Shown here piece by piece: positions 4,019 through 24,429 of a DNA stretch of 37,813 nucleotides. The stretch's first letter is position 1, and every line of letters begins with the position of its first letter. Source of the stretch: a virus; IMG/VR virus record IMGVR_UViG_3300048687_000085, positions 1 through 37,813 of that record. One strand, 5' to 3'. Under the pieces are notes generated by a model. It was not told where the DNA came from. It ran no database searches and worked only from the letters and a program-made list of their open reading frames with translations. The position numbers were made by a program, and so were the translations under genes.

Positions 4019-5230
4019 TTGGCCGGTAACTCTCTCTTAACGATGAGCATGATCACTCGCGAAGCTGCGAGGATCTTAACCAACAACCTCTGTTTTACGA
4101 AGCAGATCAGTACCGTCTATTCAGATCAGTTCGCCCGCAGCGGTGCCAAGATCGGCAGCGTACTAAATATACGCAAGCCACCCAAGTACATCGGTAGAAC
4201 AGGCCGTGTGTGTGCCGTTGAAGATGTTGTCGAGACGTCAGTGCCTCTCGCCTTGACGACGCAGTTCGGTGTGGATCTATCCTTCACGTCAGCCGAGCTC
4301 GCGTTATCGATTGACGACTTCAGCAAACGCATTTTGAAGCCCGCGGTAGCAGTCGTTGCGAATAAGATCGACTTCGACATGATGGGCTTGTACACATCAG
4401 TTCCGAACGTAGTCGGCACCGCAGGAGTTGTCCCGAACACGCTGCTTACCTATCTGATGGCGGGCGTGGCCCTCGACGACAATATGGCCCCTCGCGATAA
4501 CCAACGTGCCGTCGTTGTAAATCCGATCCAGCAAGCCACTATCGTCGATGCCTTGAAGGGCTTGTTCCAATCAGCCGATCAGATCGAAGACCAATACGAA
4601 AAGGGCACGATGGGCATCACGGGCGGATTCAAGTGGTGTATGGATCAGAATACCCGCGTCCATACTGCAGGCCCCTATGGCGGCGCCCCGATTGTCTCGG
4701 GTGGCTCACAAGTAGGCAGCAACTTGCTTGTCTCGGGCTTCACCGCAGCCGCGGCATCTCGCCTGAAGAAAGGCGACATGTTCACCATCACGGGCGTGAA
4801 CGCCGTCAATGGACAGAACCATCAGGACCTCGGGTATCTCCGCACCTTCACCGTAACCTCAGACGTGAGCTCGGCAGCGGACGGCACGGCTACCATCCCG
4901 ATCTATCCGCCGATTGTCGCCACCGGCGCAACCCAGACCGTGACCGCTTCCCCGGCCGGCGGCGCTCCGCTCACCATGACCTTCGCCGCGAACTCGAAGA
5001 CCGCGCAGGCGCTCGCATTCCATAAGGACGCCTTCACCTATGCCACGGCTGATCTACCCCTGCCAGATGGCGTGGACATGGCTTCCCGTGTCAGCGACGA
5101 CCAACTCGGCGTCTCGGTCAGGATGATTCGTCAGTACACGATCTGCGACGATGCTTGGCCAACAAGATTAGACGTTTTATACGGAATCGCGCCGATCTAT
5201 CCAGAATTGGCATGCCGCATTATCAGCTAA
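4019..5230 (+). CDS. P22-type major capsid (coat) protein
   Basis: A 403-aa P22 gp5-type coat protein (P22: 430 aa), which builds the icosahedral shell on the scaffold. The start MAGNSLLTMSMITREAARILTN is typical: helix-forming, then Asn followed by long beta stretches. The middle (residues 215-320: GGFKWCMDQNTRVHTAG, SRLKKGDMFTITGVNAVN) fits the inserted domain and spine of the HK97 fold. Translation starts at a TTG (4019) preceded by AAGGA, an unusual start codon for the most abundant virion protein. The next gene begins 12 nt downstream. Confidence 0.92.
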   Translation: MAGNSLLTMSMITREAARILTNNLCFTKQISTVYSDQFARSGAKIGSVLNIRKPPKYIGRTGRVCAVEDVVETSVPLALTTQFGVDLSFTSAELALSIDDFSKRILKPAVAVVANKIDFDMMGLYTSVPNVVGTAGVVPNTLLTYLMAGVALDDNMAPRDNQRAVVVNPIQQATIVDALKGLFQSADQIEDQYEKGTMGITGGFKWCMDQNTRVHTAGPYGGAPIVSGGSQVGSNLLVSGFTAAAASRLKKGDMFTITGVNAVNGQNHQDLGYLRTFTVTSDVSSAADGTATIPIYPPIVATGATQTVTASPAGGAPLTMTFAANSKTAQALAFHKDAFTYATADLPLPDGVDMASRVSDDQLGVSVRMIRQYTICDDAWPTRLDVLYGIAPIYPELACRIIS

Positions 5231-5242
5231 GGAGGAACCAAT

Positions 5243-5857
5243 ATGGCTACAGAGTACGACGGCACATTACAACTAGATCAAGTAGGCTTCGCCTATAGCG
5301 GCCCCGCCGGTCCATTTCAATTGAATACTTGGCCGCGCTATGCGTACCACGCGACCGAAGCGCCGCGCATCGTCAGCAATAAAGAAGAATTAGACGCATT
5401 AGGGGAAGGCTGGACCCTTCAGTACCAGCACAAGGACTACCCGAAAATGATGTTCGCTCCGAACGGCGACACGGCGGTAGTCAACACACCCGAAGAGGAA
5501 ACCGCACAAGCCAGCGCCGAAGGTGGCCCGTGGGCGGATGCGCCGCACGGCTCGACCGATCCGCAGATCGCTCGGGGAGGCAATTCGTTTACGCTGCAGC
5601 AGAAGGCTGACGCGATCCGCGACGGCAGACGGCTATCGCTCGATTACGTGCAACTCAATCAGTCCCTCGACTGCCACGCCGATAACGCCCCGATGCGGGC
5701 TATCAGCCCTACCGACGTGCCGCGCCCGCAATTCCATCCCGTTGAGACACCGGAGCAGATTCAGAAGCGCCGGGAACGGGAAGACGAAGAACGCAAACAG
5801 CGCGGTGAACACGTCGAGCACACCAGTACTAAAGCGAAGAACGACAAGAGCAAATAA
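5243..5857 (+). CDS. Head-associated protein, function unknown
   Basis: 204 aa, following the coat gene with a strong Shine-Dalgarno (AAGGAGG). The N-terminal 75 residues have motifs often seen in small proteins next to phage capsid genes (RYAYHATEAPRIV, ALGEGW, YPKMMFAPNG). The C-terminus from residue 170 is a charged helix (QKRREREDEERKQRGEH) ending in a basic tail. No enzyme motif is visible. Position suggests a head decoration or head-completion role; that is inference. Confidence 0.72.
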   Translation: MATEYDGTLQLDQVGFAYSGPAGPFQLNTWPRYAYHATEAPRIVSNKEELDALGEGWTLQYQHKDYPKMMFAPNGDTAVVNTPEEETAQASAEGGPWADAPHGSTDPQIARGGNSFTLQQKADAIRDGRRLSLDYVQLNQSLDCHADNAPMRAISPTDVPRPQFHPVETPEQIQKRREREDEERKQRGEHVEHTSTKAKNDKSK

Positions 5858-5861
5858 ACAA

Positions 5862-6239
5862 TCAGGGGCTGACGCCCTCAGCCTCTTTAGTGCTCTCGCT
5901 TTCTTTGTCGAGAGGTTCGTGTTTTAACACGATCCTCTCCCCACGTCGGTAGATATATTTGTAGTAGTCGCTGCTCAGTAACTTGCCGATCTCCTCGAAG
6001 CGGTCCGCCCGCTTGCTCCATTCCACATCGTCTTGGTCGATAGCAAACATCATGGCGTCCAATTCCAAGATCATTTTCGGCAGTAGTGCGGAGATTGGCT
6101 TTTGGTCCATTACGGCATCAAGGGTCCGGTATACGAGGCCTATTACTTTATATAGTTCGCCTATCTCGCTCGCATCTATATACCAGTCATCCTCACCGGG
6201 GTCGGCTGTCTCAAGCGGCTTGATTGGTATGGGCATCAT
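5862..6239 (-). CDS. Antisense acidic hypothetical protein
   Basis: A 125-aa acidic, helical protein (DPGEDDWYIDASEIGELYK, LLPKMILELDAMMFAID) filling the gap between two + strand virion genes. The ATG pair at 6236-6239 starts MMPIPIKPLE; an upstream ATG at 6263 would overlap the + gene at 6252. I see no family signature, signal peptide or membrane helix. Being antisense to late genes suggests independent expression, possibly in the lysogen. Confidence 0.55.
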   Translation of the reverse strand: MMPIPIKPLETADPGEDDWYIDASEIGELYKVIGLVYRTLDAVMDQKPISALLPKMILELDAMMFAIDQDDVEWSKRADRFEEIGKLLSSDYYKYIYRRGERIVLKHEPLDKESESTKEAEGVSP

Positions 6240-6251
6240 CGATAGGAGTTT

Positions 6252-6899
6252 ATGACAGTTCAAGAGTTCGTGAATTCCACGCTACGCCTGATCCGCGTGC
6301 TCGATTCCGGCGAGACGCCCACGGCAACCGAATCGGATAACGCGCTCACCGCACTCAACCAGCTCATCGGAAGCTGGTCAGCCGCAGGCGTGCCGATCTA
6401 CCAGGAGAGCAAGGATACGATTGCGCTTACCGGCTCATCGATCTATCCTCTCGCCTTCCGCCCCATCAAGCTCACCGCGGCACAGGTGAGCTACTCGGGA
6501 ATCAGCTTTCCGGTGGCTATCGTTCCCAGCCAGCAGTGGATACTACCGAAGGACCGCACGGCTACCTCGAAGTTCGCCAAAGAGTTGTACTACGACGGGA
6601 CCTTCCCCAACGGGAATGTCTCTCTCTGGCCGATTGTCACATCCGGCAGTGTACTCGAGTTGTTCTCGCTGAAGCCGCTCGCGCAGTTCGCGTCATTAGG
6701 CGACATCATCAACCTGCCTTCGGGCTATGAACAGGCCTTACGCTTTGGACTGGCTGGCGTGCTGGCACCGGAATACGGATCTGCCTTACCAGCGGAGTAC
6801 CAGCAGCAGGCAGCGCAGGCTACATCCGCGATAGCCGCGATGAATACCGCTGTGCTGGGGCAGGGCGCACCGGCAGCGGCTGTTCCCGCAGCAGTTTAG
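6252..6899 (+). CDS. P22 gp4-like tail accessory (head-completion) protein 1
   Basis: 215 aa. The N-terminus (QEFVNSTLRLIRVLDSGETPTATESDNALTALNQLI as consecutive helices) matches P22 gp4-type proteins, which plug below the portal and connect the head to the tail hub. The motif LPSGYEQALRFGLAGVLAPEYG near residues 155-178 is the conserved C-terminal part of this family. P22 gp4 is 166 aa, so this one has extra loops. AGGAG precedes the ATG. A second, divergent homologue lies at 9826-10608. Confidence 0.82.
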   Translation: MTVQEFVNSTLRLIRVLDSGETPTATESDNALTALNQLIGSWSAAGVPIYQESKDTIALTGSSIYPLAFRPIKLTAAQVSYSGISFPVAIVPSQQWILPKDRTATSKFAKELYYDGTFPNGNVSLWPIVTSGSVLELFSLKPLAQFASLGDIINLPSGYEQALRFGLAGVLAPEYGSALPAEYQQQAAQATSAIAAMNTAVLGQGAPAAAVPAAV

Positions 6900-19134: not shown

Positions 19135-19270
19135 TCATAGGGCCGAACGCAATGACAAGGGCAATCGTGTGATCGCTTTCGGAGATGTCATTACCACTGA
19201 AGATCTTCAGCAGCAACAGGAAGCCGATAGCCCAACCACCTGAAATAACCAACCACAATCGCCCAAGCAT
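19085..19270 (-). CDS. Small two-TM membrane protein
   Basis: 61 aa with two hydrophobic helices (about 5-22, LWLVISGGWAIGFLLLL, and 36-57, IALVIAFGPMIIGALLARVA) joined by a polar loop. Its ATG overlaps the stop of the upstream secreted-repeat gene (TAATG), so the two are co-translated. It also overlaps the end of the ejection gene by 50 nt on the other strand. Size and topology fit a class II holin, but many small phage membrane proteins look like this. Confidence 0.6.
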   Translation of the reverse strand: MLGRLWLVISGGWAIGFLLLLKIFSGNDISESDHTIALVIAFGPMIIGALLARVAMWVLRG

Positions 19271-19629
19271 TACCAGGACCAGTCAGAGCAGCACTTGGTA
19301 CTGAGAGACGGCAACGGCGACCAGGAAGGCGTGGAGTACGTCGGGTATATCGAACGCGGCGCGACGATGATCGGGGCTGAGGTAGCTAACGGATTATTGG
19401 CGCTGTATGGCGAGATGGCGCTGCCATAGATGCCTATCGGGTTGTTGATCGATAACGGACTGATCTTGCTTCCGTAGATGCCGATCGGGTTCGACGTCGA
19501 ATACGGATCGATTGGGTTGGACGAAAGGTTGCCGAGGAATACGCCTTTGCCATCGTTGGAATAAAGGCGTGGCGCTTGCTGCGCGAATGCAGCAGCGGCC
19601 AGTAATATTGCCGTAAGAAGGAGCTTCAT
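19270..19629 (-). CDS. Secreted protein with NPIGIYGS repeats
   Basis: 119 aa with a clear signal peptide (MKLLLTAILLAAAAFAQQ, cut after AFA or AQQ). The mature part starts LYSNDGKGVFLGNLSSNPID and then repeats SNPIGIYGSKISPLSI / NNPIGIYGSAISPYSA, followed by a Pro/Ser tail with two Cys. Secreted proteins with this short Asn-Pro-x-Gly-x-Tyr-Gly-Ser repeat occur in many bacteria; I know of no assigned function. In a phage it is probably accessory cargo taken from a host. Confidence 0.75.
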   Translation of the reverse strand: MKLLLTAILLAAAAFAQQAPRLYSNDGKGVFLGNLSSNPIDPYSTSNPIGIYGSKISPLSINNPIGIYGSAISPYSANNPLATSAPIIVAPRSIYPTYSTPSWSPLPSLSTKCCSDWSW

Positions 19630-19742
19630 AGCTCCTATCGTGACAAGTGTGTCCAGCCGCCGTCTATAGCCAAATAGTACTCAAGCCTTTGTAATTGCTT
19701 AGGAATCGCGTCACTCCCCTCTTTAACCCGCCCATTCCCCTC

Positions 19743-19949
19743 TTACTTTCCCGCCACGCACTTATCGTGCACCCGGTTGTGAATCCCCCCGTCCCGGTAC
19801 ATCTGTCCCCCTACGATCGCCTTCCCGCAGATCTGGCAGTCCGACGGCCTGGTCAGGCGTGACATCCGCTTTACCTTCGCGGTTGTCCAGCGCGAGACGT
19901 TCCTCTTTTTCAGTAACTCTGTGAGTTGTTTGTCGATCGGAATAACCAT
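19743..19949 (-). CDS. Small zinc-finger-like protein
   Basis: 68 aa. The C-terminal half carries CQICGKAIVGGQMYRDGG followed by HNRVHDKC, a CxxC...HxxxHxxC pattern likely to bind one zinc. The N-terminal half is basic and helical (TELLKKRNVSRWTTAKVKRM) and may bind nucleic acid. It sits in the operon behind the replication protein. Confidence 0.65.
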   Translation of the reverse strand: MVIPIDKQLTELLKKRNVSRWTTAKVKRMSRLTRPSDCQICGKAIVGGQMYRDGGIHNRVHDKCVAGK

Positions 19950-19969
19950 CGGTGTGCCCGATGGTTAGG

Positions 19970-20215
19970 TTACGCGAAGGGCAGCGGCCAGGGATACTCC
20001 CCGGCTTCCATGAGGTGGTAGCGGGCTTCGATGCGCTCGACTCCCAGCGACTCGACCAGGTACTCGGAGACAGCCGCGACGAACTCGGCTTCCGGCCGGC
20101 GCAGGTACTTCCGCTGAAGTTTCCGGATGTGCTGTGCATGCTCGCCGGTCAGCAGCGAGATCGCCGCCATGACACGGCACGGATCGAGAAAGTAGTGCCC
20201 TACCTCCGGATCCAT
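19970..20215 (-). CDS. Hypothetical helical protein
   Basis: 81 aa from the ATG at 20215, which overlaps the end of the upstream zinc-ribbon gene by 16 nt. Helical (VMAAISLLTGEHAQHIRKLQ, AEFVAAVSEYLVESLGVERI), ending AGEYPWPLPFA. A longer reading to 20311 would run antisense-like through the zinc-ribbon gene and is less convincing. No family recognised. Confidence 0.55.
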   Translation of the reverse strand: MDPEVGHYFLDPCRVMAAISLLTGEHAQHIRKLQRKYLRRPEAEFVAAVSEYLVESLGVERIEARYHLMEAGEYPWPLPFA

Positions 20216-20409
20216 ACCTTTCCCGTCCCCTCGCACACCTGACACGGGTACCTCCCCGCCGTCGAGCTCGTGATCCCCAGTTGACAGTACCTGCAGTTCG
20301 TTTCCTGCCATTTCTGCATGACCTCCAGTGCGTAGAGTTGTTCCTTATCCCCGAACCTTGGACGCTCGGCCAGGACTTGTAAGGCTGCAGCTACCTCAGG
20401 AGGGGTCAT
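20200..20409 (-). CDS. Zinc-ribbon protein
   Basis: 69 aa: a helical N-terminus (PPEVAAALQVLAERPRFGDK) and a C-terminal ribbon NCRYCQLG...YPCQVCEGTGKV, two CxxC knuckles about 15 residues apart. The second knuckle resembles DnaJ-type CxxCxGxG. Likely nucleic-acid or protein binding. It follows the upstream gene by 6 nt. Confidence 0.6.
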   Translation of the reverse strand: MTPPEVAAALQVLAERPRFGDKEQLYALEVMQKWQETNCRYCQLGITSSTAGRYPCQVCEGTGKVWIRR

Positions 20410-20415
20410 AACGCC

Positions 20416-20964
20416 CTAGTTCAACCAGTCCTTCTTGCCGACCTGGGCTTCGAGATCGGCCAGGAGACGTGCGGTTTCCTCCGCGGTTCGGCGGCCTTGG
20501 GTGATTTGCTGCTTGAGCTGCTCTTCGAGTTCGTGGATCGAAGGGCCGTGCCTTGGTGCCTTGGATGGCCCAGAAACGGGCTTCACCGCATCGGCGGGAA
20601 CCTCGAAGGGCTCCGGATCGCCTGAACCCAGCAGTTTCGCCTCTTGCTTCCAGGCGGCTAGTTTGCGCTCGTATTCCCTGCCTTCCTCGATGCGGTAAGC
20701 GTCCTCCGCAGATGTCGGTAATTCCTGCCGGCCGTCCGCTGCCGGATATCGGGTACAGAAGAGTTGTCGCAATGCCGGGAGCGAGAACTGGGTCATCGTA
20801 TTGCAGGCGGCATCAACCAACCATTCGAGTTGCTCTCGCGTACCAACGAAGGATTCGATCGCCCGCTGGATGAAGGCTAGGGCAGGCCCTCCGGTCGGAA
20901 AGAACGGAATGATCTGGGACATCAGCACGACCGCTTTGGTGACGTCTTCCCTTATGAGTTTCAT
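20416..20964 (-). CDS. Hypothetical replication-module protein
   Basis: 182 aa, starting 12 nt after the replication protein gene. The N-terminal roughly 85 residues form a helical domain (AFIQRAIESFVGTREQLEWL, FSLPALRQLFCTRYPAADG); the rest is a linker and a charged coiled coil (IHELEEQLKQQITQGRRTAE). Position next to an initiator/loader-like protein, as lambda P sits next to O, suggests a partner role, but no helicase-loader ATPase motif is present. Function not recognised. Confidence 0.6.
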   Translation of the reverse strand: MKLIREDVTKAVVLMSQIIPFFPTGGPALAFIQRAIESFVGTREQLEWLVDAACNTMTQFSLPALRQLFCTRYPAADGRQELPTSAEDAYRIEEGREYERKLAAWKQEAKLLGSGDPEPFEVPADAVKPVSGPSKAPRHGPSIHELEEQLKQQITQGRRTAEETARLLADLEAQVGKKDWLN

Positions 20965-20972
20965 CGCAGCCT

Positions 20973-20983
20973 CGCTTTAGCGC
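20973..20983 (-). repeat. GCGCTAAAGCG stop-codon motif, copy 4
   Basis: On the minus strand it spans the end of the replication gene (CGC TAA AGCG), the stop being inside the motif, with the next ATG 9 bases further on. It is the only copy outside the late + block. Confidence 0.5.
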
Positions 20984-22443
20984 AGCGGCCCCAGATCGCG
21001 ATCGAGTGTTCTCGATCGTTCCATCAGTTGGCGGAGCGCATCATCGCGCTGCTGCTGCTTACTATTGCCGGGGGCGGGAGCAAACTTACGGGCTGTAATG
21101 GGCTCTATATCCCAAATCTCACTGTTTAGGTATTTCAGAGGGGCGGGCGTATATTCCGACCCACGCCACTTCCCCTGTGACCGGATAGTGGCGTCGTCGA
21201 CGATGCGCTGTTGGGTTTCGGGAGGGTACCGGAAAAACACCTGCCGGCAGGTGTCCACGGATCTCACGCTGACGGGCCGACCGCTGCCCTCCATGAGGAG
21301 GCAGAAAATCTCAAATAACTCAGTGCTGTTGGGATTGGCGACTACTAATTCGCGCCGCGGATCTAGGACCGCAACTGCTGTTTCTGGGGGCCGTTCTAAA
21401 TTTTCATCGAGTCCAGCGACTCCCTGACTGCCCACGCGGCCAGCATCGTATCGGGATGATAGCGATAAATCATCTCTAGAACTTGAAGCATGTGGTTTAC
21501 TGACTCCTCGTTTGGCCGGTCCATCATAATTTTGACGATTCCCTTTATTTCCTTCTGGGTTAGCGTCTGCTCCGGGTCCATTTGTTCGGCTACCCGATTG
21601 ACCAGTTCTTCGGTCATCAGTTCGTAGAGTTTGCGCTGGCGGTCTGAGATCATCTGGCGGACTGTCCTTGCGAGAATGGGGGGAGGAACGGGGTTGTTCC
21701 GGTTCCTCTACACTACTAGTAGTTTCGCGCCCCCCTCTATCCTCTGTTTTATCAGTAGTTTTATACTTTCTATCTTCCTTATATAGGTCGTCCTGCGCGC
21801 TAACCCTTTCGAGCAGTGCGCGCACACGCTTCTCCGCCTCTTCGTAACAGCGCGCAATCTCGGCACCCTCTTCGATAATGGAACTGCGCGCAGTTACTAA
21901 CTCTGTATCGAGTCTTACTCTCAGACGTTTGATAAGGGGTTTTAGGGACTCCCAGGATTCGGGGAACCAGTCGGGAAACTGTAAGCTAGATTGTAACTGC
22001 GCGCAGTTACTATCCTCTTCCTGGGGTGGTTGAGGGATCGCCCAGGAGTATATCAGAATGTGGCCGCGGCGCAATTCCCCGCCGTCGTCGCTGCGGCGTT
22101 CGGCCAGACCCTGCTCTTCTAACTCTCGTAAAGCGGCGGTAACGTGCTGTTTTATAAGACCGGTCTGCTCGACGATGTCGGTAGGTGTCAGCGGCTGACC
22201 ATTATTGGCCAGCGCCAACTCCCGCTTCCAGAACATCGTGGCTGCTTCCAGACATGCATACACCCGCCGGGCATCACTCGACAGCGAATTCTGCATCAAC
22301 CGCCGGCAGCGGGCCTTGGTATTGAAGTAATACTCACCGGCCGGGATCTGGACCGCCAGCCCTTCCGCTCCGGTAATAGTAAAAGACCCTGATTTATGTG
22401 AGGTACCGTTCGATTCCAACGCCAACACCCAATCCGGCGCCAA
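20977..22443 (-). CDS. Winged-helix replication initiation protein
   Basis: 488 aa. Residues 40-155 are a winged-helix domain (MQNSLSSDARRVYACLEAAT, LTPTDIVEQTGLIKQHVTAA, LRELEEQGLAERRSDDGGEL) like phage lambda O-type and primosomal replication proteins that bind an origin. Residues about 225-350 are a hydrophilic, repetitive linker, and the C-terminus (about 365-488; FRYPPETQQRIVDDATI, RGSEYTPAPLKYLN) is a separate conserved-looking domain. The linker DNA is open in another frame and probably encodes a second protein (21396-21653). It heads a seven-gene minus-strand operon. Confidence 0.7.
   Translation of the reverse strand: MAPDWVLALESNGTSHKSGSFTITGAEGLAVQIPAGEYYFNTKARCRRLMQNSLSSDARRVYACLEAATMFWKRELALANNGQPLTPTDIVEQTGLIKQHVTAALRELEEQGLAERRSDDGGELRRGHILIYSWAIPQPPQEEDSNCAQLQSSLQFPDWFPESWESLKPLIKRLRVRLDTELVTARSSIIEEGAEIARCYEEAEKRVRALLERVSAQDDLYKEDRKYKTTDKTEDRGGRETTSSVEEPEQPRSSPHSRKDSPPDDLRPPAQTLRTDDRRTGQSGSRTNGPGADANPEGNKGNRQNYDGPAKRGVSKPHASSSRDDLSLSSRYDAGRVGSQGVAGLDENLERPPETAVAVLDPRRELVVANPNSTELFEIFCLLMEGSGRPVSVRSVDTCRQVFFRYPPETQQRIVDDATIRSQGKWRGSEYTPAPLKYLNSEIWDIEPITARKFAPAPGNSKQQQRDDALRQLMERSRTLDRDLGPLR
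21396..21653 (-). CDS. Probable overprinted gene inside the replication gene
   Basis: An 85-aa protein in a different minus-strand frame, nested within the replication gene: MISDRQRKLYELMTEELVNR, then EQTLTQKEIKGIVKIMMDRP and MLQVLEMIYRYHPDTMLAAW. It looks like a well-formed helical protein with regular hydrophobic spacing, while the larger frame is low-complexity and polar exactly here. AAGGA lies about 11 nt before its ATG. Alternatives are a chance open frame in GC-rich DNA, or an assembly frameshift pair that moves the replication frame. Confidence 0.5.
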   Translation of the reverse strand: MISDRQRKLYELMTEELVNRVAEQMDPEQTLTQKEIKGIVKIMMDRPNEESVNHMLQVLEMIYRYHPDTMLAAWAVRESLDSMKI

Positions 22444-22775
22444 TGCGCCACCGCAGGCAAAATTTGCAAATAGAGGTTGATAGAGGGTTGACGGGCTGAA
22501 GACTTATGTCAGAATAAAGCCAGTAGTACCCTCCCTTCTTTGGGCTTCGTAACTTGTCGCTGCTAATGTTTACTAGGCACTGTGCAGCAACAGGTTATTT
22601 CCCGTAGGAGGGGGCCTTTCCAGACCCTGCTGAGCTAGCCGCCGCCGGCTCGGATTCAAAGTTGACAACTTTGCATTCGCCACATTCGCCTCCAGAAGTG
22701 TGTTTTGTCCAACGTTAGTAAATAATCCGCCCTAGCCTCACCGTGAGCGCATCTCAAGTTTGGTGCAGTTGATGT
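22444..22775. promoter_or_regulatory. Divergent control region between replication and recombinase genes
   Basis: 332 bp without a gene. It holds the perfect 15-bp palindrome AAAGTTGACAACTTT (22658-22672), whose centre is a consensus -35 hexamer TTGACA, and a second TTGACG near 22488. No good TATAAT is at the ideal spacing, so promoters are only suggested. The palindrome is a good repressor operator candidate for the recombinase at 22776. Confidence 0.4.
22658..22672. promoter_or_regulatory. 15-bp palindromic operator candidate
   Basis: AAAGTTGACAACTTT is a perfect inverted repeat around one central A, with TTGACA embedded. A repressor dimer bound here would block RNA polymerase reading toward the recombinase gene about 100 bp downstream. 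Confidence 0.4.
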
Positions 22776-23747
22776 ATGGAACTTCACCAGCAACTCCCCC
22801 TGTTCGCCGAAGCTTTCACAAACGAGAATGATCTGTTTCGGGAAAGCCTTCGCTTTGAGGAATCGATCCGCGCCCCGCGGACCTTGCAAACCTACTCGAG
22901 CGACTGGAAAACCTTTTGTCTGTGGTGCGCCAAGGAAGGTAGGGAAGCCCTTCCTGCGACCACCGACACCGTGAGGCTCTACATCACGGATTCTCTGCTT
23001 CACAACAAGCGCGTCAGCACCTTGCGGCACCATGTCTGCGCCATCATCCATCACCACCGCGTGGCTGGGTGTATCGAGCCTTCGCGGCGGGAGATTCTGC
23101 CGGTCCTCGCCGGTGCCCAGCGGATTCGCGGGGAACAGGTGCGAGGCAAAGCGGCCATCACGGTCGAACAGCTCCGGATGATGCTGTGGAGCCTTCACCG
23201 TCCGGAGCCGGCACGAACGCGGGACCAGGCCGTCCTGTTGTTCGGCTTTACGACAGCTCTGAGACGATCGAACATCGCGACGGTCGCAATCGAGGACGTA
23301 GACTTCCGGCCCGAAGGCTTTGTGGTCCATATCCGGAAAGAGAAGCAGGACCAGACCAGCGTCGGCCGGTACATCGGAGTCCCGAACGGCAAACACGCGG
23401 ACACTTGTCCTGTCCAGGCTTTGAAGGCCTGGCTGACCTACCGCGGCGTCACGCCGGGGCCGGTCTTTTGCGGAATGCGGGCGTCTAAAATCGACCACGA
23501 AAAACCCATCCACACAAACACGCTGGCGATGATTGTAAAGAGAGGCGCAGAAGCGCTCGGCCTGGATACAGCCGAGTACGCCGCGCACAGCTTGCGGGCA
23601 GGATTTATTACGAGTGCTCTGGAGGGGGGCGTGGGAGAGATTGTGACCGCACGGCATAGCGGCCACCGGTCGCTCGGGACGCTGAAGCGCTATATGCGCT
23701 CGGAGGACCCGTTCCGGGCGAATGCGTGCTCTGCTCTGGAGCTTTAG
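22776..23747 (+). CDS. Tyrosine recombinase 1
   Basis: 323 aa. A SAM-like N-terminal domain (residues about 20-115; LQTYSSDWKTFCLWCAKEG) is followed by the catalytic domain. The active-site set is visible: Arg in TTALRRSNI (about 168), Lys in HIRKEKQDQ, His-x-x-Arg in HSLRAGF (about 276), His in RHSGHRS and nucleophile Tyr in LKRYMRS (about 309). It should cut and rejoin DNA at att-like sites. It is on + between two minus-strand operons and unrelated in detail to the second recombinase at 28131, so it may belong to an inserted element or be a former integrase. Confidence 0.88.
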   Translation: MELHQQLPLFAEAFTNENDLFRESLRFEESIRAPRTLQTYSSDWKTFCLWCAKEGREALPATTDTVRLYITDSLLHNKRVSTLRHHVCAIIHHHRVAGCIEPSRREILPVLAGAQRIRGEQVRGKAAITVEQLRMMLWSLHRPEPARTRDQAVLLFGFTTALRRSNIATVAIEDVDFRPEGFVVHIRKEKQDQTSVGRYIGVPNGKHADTCPVQALKAWLTYRGVTPGPVFCGMRASKIDHEKPIHTNTLAMIVKRGAEALGLDTAEYAAHSLRAGFITSALEGGVGEIVTARHSGHRSLGTLKRYMRSEDPFRANACSALEL

Positions 23748-24078
23748 CCGGGATGGAGATTTGTTGGCCATGACCCTCACTGTACTGAGGGGTTCGGTAG
23801 CTGGCGGCCGGTACAGTTACCCGCCGAGGAGCGGGTACGACCGCCATGCTACAGATTTTCTGCCCGTTAGCAAGACGGGCATTTAGATCGTAACACGGAG
23901 AAGACTGGTAACCAACGACGATTAACCAAGCCGTGAAATACTGTGATAGAAAAGACACAACATAAAACCTTTTCTGCGCTAGTACTGCTGCCAGCGCCCC
24001 TCCACGATATGCCTTAACCGTAATGCAAGGCAAGTGAAAACCCACCTTAACGGCAATCCGAAATATTTCGGGTTTTCC
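23748..24078. other. Intergenic region with hairpins
   Basis: 331 bp with no convincing gene. It holds CCCGC...GCGGG (about 23820-23835), GCCCGT...ACGGGC (23862-23880) and the terminator at 24058-24078. As it follows a recombinase, an att site is possible, but I found no repeat to prove one. Confidence 0.4.
24036..24078. terminator. Probable bidirectional terminator
   Basis: CCGAAATATTTCGG (24058-24071) is a perfect stem followed by GTTTTCC on +. A larger pairing GAAAACCC (24036-24043) with GGGTTTTC (24070-24077) encloses it. It separates the convergent recombinase gene (+) from the minus-strand operon ending at 24079. Confidence 0.5.
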
Positions 24079-24429
24079 TTACCCACAAATACGGGTAGGA
24101 CATTCCATCCACGTTTCGTAACGGTGATTAAAATACCGGATCACGTCGAAGCGATTTAGATTGTGGAATATCCAGAAACGCTTCCCTAGACGATGATGGG
24201 CATCCGCCCGATTCCGGTGATGTCCCGCGCATAAAGCGATTGCTTCGCGATCGTGGCAGCGCACACCGAACCCTCGAGGTCCGACATGCGCTGCTTCGAT
24301 GTAATGCGAGGTGCAACCCGGAACGGCACACGGCTGCGTTCTGACCCAGGCGAGATATTTCGGGTCGAGTTCCCGGCCCCGGTAAGGCTTGATTCCCTTC
24401 CGGCGCATCGGGAGATAACGAGCCAGCAT
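24079..24429 (-). CDS. HNH-type nuclease
   Basis: 116 aa from the ATG at 24429, which overlaps the previous stop (TGATG). It has the features of small phage HNH proteins related to Ref/DUF968: CAVPGC, then EAAHVGPRGFGVRCHDREAI, ALCAGHHRNRADAHHR and LGKRFWIFHN. The two Cys with the later C..H likely bind zinc structurally, and HV/HH residues would form the metal-dependent nuclease site. A possible role is host or recombination DNA cleavage. A longer reading to 24654 overlaps two other genes and is not supported. Confidence 0.8.
   Translation of the reverse strand: MLARYLPMRRKGIKPYRGRELDPKYLAWVRTQPCAVPGCTSHYIEAAHVGPRGFGVRCHDREAIALCAGHHRNRADAHHRLGKRFWIFHNLNRFDVIRYFNHRYETWMECPTRICG

Follow-up and report, generated by a model that had tools for sequence, protein, structure and literature searches.

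In this work we analysed a 37.8-kb virus record (37,813 nucleotides, called here the window, in whose numbering ORF coordinates are given) together with related phages, and the comparison suggests a family of soil bacterial viruses in which the replication initiator gene appears to be a place where small genes are exchanged. In the reading that we consider quite probable, this gene, rep, is modular, a slot within it takes small genes that lie in the +1 frame and are initiated internally, Rep reads through the slot as a polar tether, and the slot contents are exchanged by recombination. The observations behind it are the conservation and codon usage of one nested ORF (ORF A), the presence of two unrelated ORFs and of one ORF-less slot at the same place, a sharp exchange boundary, and a Rep frame that stays open.

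The rep gene and its candidate origin

Family searches showed that the window also encodes a portal, a head-closure gene and an integrase. The minus-strand ORF 22443-20977 probably encodes a lambda-O-like replication initiator and putative origin-binding protein. It was named rep because its product combines a winged helix with weak matches to O-like families (PHROG 678, E = 0.0022; PHROG 270, E = 0.0073), and because the gene contains iterons and an AT-rich stretch, as in the plan of lambda O. The features of this region are as follows.

20977..22443, minus strand: rep, putative lambda-O-like replication initiator gene, 488 codons (ORF list and family matches)
22081..22215, minus strand: winged-helix DNA-binding domain of Rep, residues 77-121 (MarR_2, E = 3.8e-8)
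21992..22012, no strand: palindromic iteron-like site TGTAACTGCGCGCAGTTACTA within rep (sequence repeat)
21879..21899, no strand: second palindromic iteron-like site, 95% identical to the TGTAACTGCGCGCAGTTACTA site (sequence repeat)
21795..21855, no strand: three more GCGCGC-centred sites (21795-21800, 21818-21823, 21850-21855)
21720..21809, no strand: AT-rich stretch past the iterons, candidate unwinding element (38-40% GC, 60-nt steps)
20977..21336, minus strand: conserved C-terminal domain of Rep (57% identical to L002)
20416..20964, minus strand: gene after rep, 182 aa, in the position of lambda P (ORF list)
22776..23747, plus strand: tyrosine recombinase (integrase) adjoining rep (family match)

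Translation of rep perhaps begins at the TTG at 22425, where the related records L002 and L019 have their ATG in the alignment. Five of the 12 GCGCGC of the window (those of the two palindromic sites and the three others) fall within one 300-nt stretch. The C-terminal domain presumably recruits a helicase loader, a function that the 182-aa gene may provide, judging by its position only.

This layout resembles that of lambda O. In the available parts of two papers, the lambda O gene has its iterons and AT-rich tract in its middle, and its product has an N-terminal DNA-binding and a C-terminal P-binding region joined by a flexible linker (PMC7466680, PMC6022878). Rep likewise would have an N-terminal DNA-binding domain, in-gene iterons followed by an AT-rich tract, a linker, a C-terminal domain, and a next gene in the P position. 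It differs in that its similarity to the O-like families is weak, and in that those parts of the two papers mention no gene nested in the O linker.

A conserved +1 frame of 52-71 codons over the origin was considered as a gene and rejected, as its codon log-odds (see below) are about -0.29; the underlying DNA is probably conserved for origin function. The integrase adjoins rep in L002 and L027 as well. A 374-codon ORF lies antisense to it in the window (22656-23780, minus strand), and long antisense ORFs are also found opposite the integrase gene of L002 (332 codons) and L027 (372 codons); they may be a by-product of codon usage.

An ORF nested in the Rep linker

The middle of rep, downstream of the candidate origin, contains the following features.

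21678..21745, minus strand: conserved joint of about 70 bp 5' of the slot, containing ACTACTAGTAGT and CCGGAACAACCCC (kept in L002, L019/L025 and L027)
21665..21669, minus strand: AAGGA, Shine-Dalgarno-like, 11 nt before the ATG of ORF A (sequence)
21396..21653, minus strand: ORF A, ATG start, 85 aa, +1 frame relative to rep (ORF list)
21347..21677, minus strand: slot, variable between phages, limits approximate (cross-phage comparison)

The initial annotation of this DNA had pointed to an ORF in another frame where the replication protein is polar, and this description holds. ORF A (85 aa, 21653-21396) lies wholly inside the rep ORF (offset 790 nt) and spans Rep codons 264-348, and the Rep frame beneath it has a GRAVY of -1.42, with 12% ILVFMWYC and 73% GPSNDRTQ. 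The nested protein had also been called helical with good hydrophobic spacing: 39% of its residues are ILVFMWYC and its structure model is all-helical with four helices, but the confidence of the model is low (pLDDT 63). The Shine-Dalgarno-like motif is there, and L002 has the ATG and the AAGGA at identical spacing, but it is weak and somewhat far from the ATG, with a pairing energy of -5.1 kcal/mol that is equalled or bettered by 14% of the 1008 ATGs of the window.

The nearest relative is L002, whose Rep is 67% identical overall to that of the window. Its homologue of ORF A has 99 codons, 47% identity and the same +1 frame with no stops, so that the nested frame is preserved in a close relative, as had been proposed for a check. 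These two are the only homologues of ORF A known here, and the conservation test compares two sequences only. The overlap contains 79 differences in 237 aligned nucleotides. ORF A reaches a BLOSUM score of 182, compared with 119.7 +/- 20.1 when the 79 differences are placed at random (P = 0.0011), whereas the Rep frame in the overlap scores 125 vs 118.2 (P = 0.39); the closed third frame is also slightly above random (P = 0.04). When simulations were held to the observed conservation of the Rep frame, 0/600 matched the score of ORF A.

The expectation that synonymous sites would be conserved in the linker was borne out: identical Rep residues are encoded by an identical codon in 27 of 29 cases in the overlap vs 42 of 70 downstream (P = 0.0008), and the excess of differences at Rep position 3 disappears (22/79 in the overlap vs 55/116 in the C-domain, P = 0.007). 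In a synonymous-codon test that demanded a score at least equal to the observed one and no stop, with 5000 samplings per null, free codons gave 0/5000 and nearest codons 375/5000. Two still milder nulls gave 2883/5000 and 2992/5000, and these leave more similarity than there is in the real pair; in the two mildest nulls (codons nearest those of the window, same codon at 93-100% of identical residues) the similarity of ORF A is reached almost always.

Codon log-odds were trained on 14 window genes, which have a mean of +0.193 (range -0.035 to +0.301), and 26 same-strand spurious ORFs have a mean of -0.321 (maximum +0.129). ORF A scores +0.220 in the window and +0.079 in L002, the latter below the best spurious ORF, and ORF B, which occupies the slot of another phage (see below), scores +0.234. 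The Rep frame at the same places scores -0.308 (window), -0.267 (L002) and -0.587 (ORF B slot). ORF A is thus most likely a real gene.

Different contents of the slot in related phages

Further records were retrieved by a scan with the C-domain and by DNA patterns taken from the AT-rich tract and the joint. Of the four rep genes that carry this C-domain, two have ORF A in the slot (window and L002), one has ORF B (L019/L025), and one is empty, with a short linker and no ORF (L027). L019 and L025 are two contigs of one sample that share an exact 120-nt overlap in the linker, and each matches the half of the window that the other lacks (L033: 21676-37761; L031: 932-21747), so that they are probably one phage type cut in the linker; the contig break between them may also be a sign of coexisting variants in the sample.

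ORF B has 72 codons, is also in the +1 frame and is unrelated to ORF A. A GGAGG lies 6 nt before its ATG, with a pairing energy of -9.5 that is reached by 1.1% of the 1008 window ATGs. As there is one copy only, its coding status is based on codon usage and the ribosome-binding site, not on conservation. The boundary of the exchange is sharp at its 3' side: L002 and L025 are identical at 360/365 positions from AAGTAG to the end of rep, with no similarity immediately upstream, and AAGTAG contains the stop codon common to the two slot genes (ORF A in L002, ORF B in L025).

L027 matches the window on the integrase side (22393-24131, 92%), at the joint (21678-21745, 88%) and at 19270-21315 (79%), and it is identical to L002 at 216/220 nt at the start of the C-domain. 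Its linker is short and proline-rich, with no out-of-frame ORF of at least 45 codons. Its N-terminal module is different: at 4149-4890 of L027 an unrelated domain, which carries direct repeats of its own (4620-4650 and 4694-4724), takes the place of the N-terminal half of rep, and both flanks match the window. This amounts to a swap of the initiator domain together with a candidate origin inside the gene.

The joint contains a perfect palindrome, ACTACTAGTAGT (window 21712-21723). All four phages that carry this C-domain retain its CTACTAGTAG core, and the palindrome is possibly a regulatory or recombination site.

Rep relatives with other C-terminal parts (L004, L006, L011-L014, L018 and L021, with L015 left out) have no out-of-frame ORF of at least 45 codons with positive codon log-odds on the rep strand within rep; L012-L014 show a weakly supported kinship to rep (E 2e-8 to 9e-6). 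An 83-codon ORF of L006 (+0.203) was discarded as a nested gene, since it is the gene upstream of rep (5708-5959). The Solibacteraceae MAG of L006 contains a prophage-like locus that has a related rep N-terminus and lacks a slot gene. Strong palindromic repeats of the AAGGTAGCCGCGCGCGGCTACCTT type lie inside this rep (5950-6610), and its presence there hints at Acidobacteriota as hosts of this phage group.

Searches for the slot proteins gave little. No relatives of ORF A or ORF B were found among annotated phages, none of Rep or its C-domain in the phages and plasmids searched, none of ORF B in 257 genomes of the order, and none of ORF A in the records of L004, L006, L018, L019, L021, L025 and L027. 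Among 396 genomes of the phylum of the L006 host, only two, L016 and L017, gave weak matches to ORF A (E 0.003 and 0.01), and the one in L016 was set aside because it is part of a longer, apparently unrelated protein. PADLOC matches of ORF A, with E 0.0047 and 0.015 and each covering a portion of a long profile, were discounted as weak. No helpful family match for the slot proteins came from Pfam, PHROGs or NCBIfam, and a fold search with the low-confidence model of ORF A gave no significant match; the model of ORF B is poorer still (pLDDT 58).

Rep is probably read through the slot

The Rep frame has no stops in the three filled slots (3/3). When codons were sampled for the nested proteins, it stayed open in 4-8% of cases. 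Windows of 72-99 codons in real genes are open in the tolerated register in 17-28% of cases and in the other register in 1-5%, so that the open Rep frame is modest evidence only. We found no in-frame start codon with a Shine-Dalgarno ahead of the C-domain, and the idea that the C-domain is a separate gene was rejected on that ground. In L027 the same C-domain belongs to one continuous gene with a plain linker. Taken together, the open frame in all three filled slots, the lack of a start for the C-domain and the continuous gene of L027 make read-through the simplest reading of the sequences. No known RNA element, self-splicing introns included, reached the Rfam gathering score in the window, L002, L025 or L027.

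Alternative explanations

The main rival of the modular rep with an exchangeable slot gene, which we consider rather unlikely, is a selfish element: the genes found in the slot would be mobile and would place themselves there out of frame, as the ShiLan element does. ShiLan is an out-of-frame HNH homing endonuclease gene inside a phage methylase gene (PMC11855218). The architecture is alike, with an out-of-frame ORF in an insertion within another phage gene, a host frame free of stops and some relatives without the insertion, and that paper reports a different insertion in a divergent methylase gene, which we count as a further likeness (PMC11855218). The patchy distribution and the replacement at one site also fit a selfish element. 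However, searches of Pfam, PHROGs and NCBIfam gave neither ORF A nor ORF B a match to an endonuclease, HNH or other, and with 72-99 aa the slot products fall well short of the 195 and 160 aa given for those of the HNH frame (PMC11855218). Two unrelated genes at one site, moreover, argue for a slot rather than for one mobile family. Compared with what is described of ShiLan, the host is here a replication initiator linker and not a methylase, the slot products are small, mutually unrelated and not endonuclease-like, unrelated genes replace one another at one site, and the slot genes have their own ATG and Shine-Dalgarno-like motif, of which none is reported near the HNH gene (PMC11855218). ShiLan is the closest published case that we found, with the same logic but a different gene, place, products and interchangeability. 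A phrase-based search of the open-access literature found no nested gene in an O-like initiator; one may exist in print.

It is unlikely that the slots hold relics, that is fragments of foreign genes that recombination has captured and that now act as Rep linker only, with a silent +1 frame. The Rep frame needs only a tether, and the similarity of the window to L002 could partly predate the capture. Against this, a third of the overlap sites differ and yet the frame is open in both phages, with the start and the AAGGA spacing kept; conservation favours ORF A over Rep; and ORF B has a complete start and a strong Shine-Dalgarno.

That ORF A is a chance ORF without function is very unlikely, although its length would allow it: the +1 frame of 14 other window genes contains 8 ORFs of 63-89 codons, and length alone was rejected as evidence for a gene. 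Samplings that keep the Rep linker leave the nested frame open by chance in 23-39% of cases. What places ORF A beyond chance is its gene-like codon usage and a conservation above that of the Rep frame, not its length, and a second gene-like ORF occupies the same slot in the same frame.

The least probable reading is a fusion of the Rep N-terminal domain to the nested protein by slippage of the ribosome or RNA polymerase, for example on the C-run just before the slot; C-runs lie in or beside the joint in the window, L002, L025 and L027, and ahead of the ATG the +1 frame has 18 open codons in the window (103 vs 85) and 23 in L025 (95 vs 72), but just 8 in L002 (107 vs 99), which places a stop between the C-run and ORF A and disfavours the fusion, and all three (window, L002 and L025) have an ATG and a Shine-Dalgarno-like motif. 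A shift of the Rep frame at this place, which the initial annotation had named as an argument against the nested gene, is accordingly disfavoured, and the Rep frame is open through the slots.

Model for an exchangeable gene within the initiator

In the modular reading, rep would be built of an N-terminal origin-binding domain with its in-gene origin, the conserved joint, the linker slot and the C-terminal domain. The slot would take small whole genes in the +1 frame, each with its own start and ribosome-binding site. Ribosomes would initiate on these genes internally in the rep mRNA and would also translate Rep straight across the slot in its own frame; the resulting stretch of Rep would be a polar tether for which the exact sequence is of little importance. 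Recombination at the joint and at the 3' flank, the site of the slot-gene stop codon, would replace one slot gene by another. Unrelated small genes that replace one another at one site are typical of accessory genes. Because they would be co-transcribed with rep, the slot genes should be early, and their products are most likely small early-expressed accessory proteins acting in host take-over, counter-defence or replication control.

A gene overprinted on a disordered linker had been proposed from the window sequence. The gene stands, but the direction of origin is probably the reverse: the codon usage is gene-like in the nested and not in the Rep frame, and an unrelated gene or none is found at the same place elsewhere, which suggests insertion and exchange rather than birth on an old linker. 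Phages are known to have same-strand nested genes, such as phiX174 B inside A and lambda Rz1 inside Rz. These also are complete genes inside another in a shifted frame, but they are fixed pairs, whereas here the inner gene would be exchangeable and it is the outer segment that looks overprinted.

A broader proposal, to which we give an even chance of being right, is that the initiator linker is an in-gene cargo slot in which recombination swaps complete small early genes, always in the frame that leaves the surrounding gene open, so that the cargo sits inside an uncut essential gene and is co-expressed with it; Rep would then be an assembly of swappable origin, cargo and C-terminal modules in one reading frame. 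The usual view of overlapping genes is that a new frame arises on an existing gene and is then fixed in place. Here the inner gene seems to have been ready-made on arrival and to be exchangeable, and the outer protein would absorb it as a disordered tether. The tolerated register in this phage is the one most often free of stops in real genes. If this is true, linkers of essential phage genes would be places for hidden accessory genes that annotation pipelines miss, and how an essential gene tolerates out-of-frame cargo would become testable.
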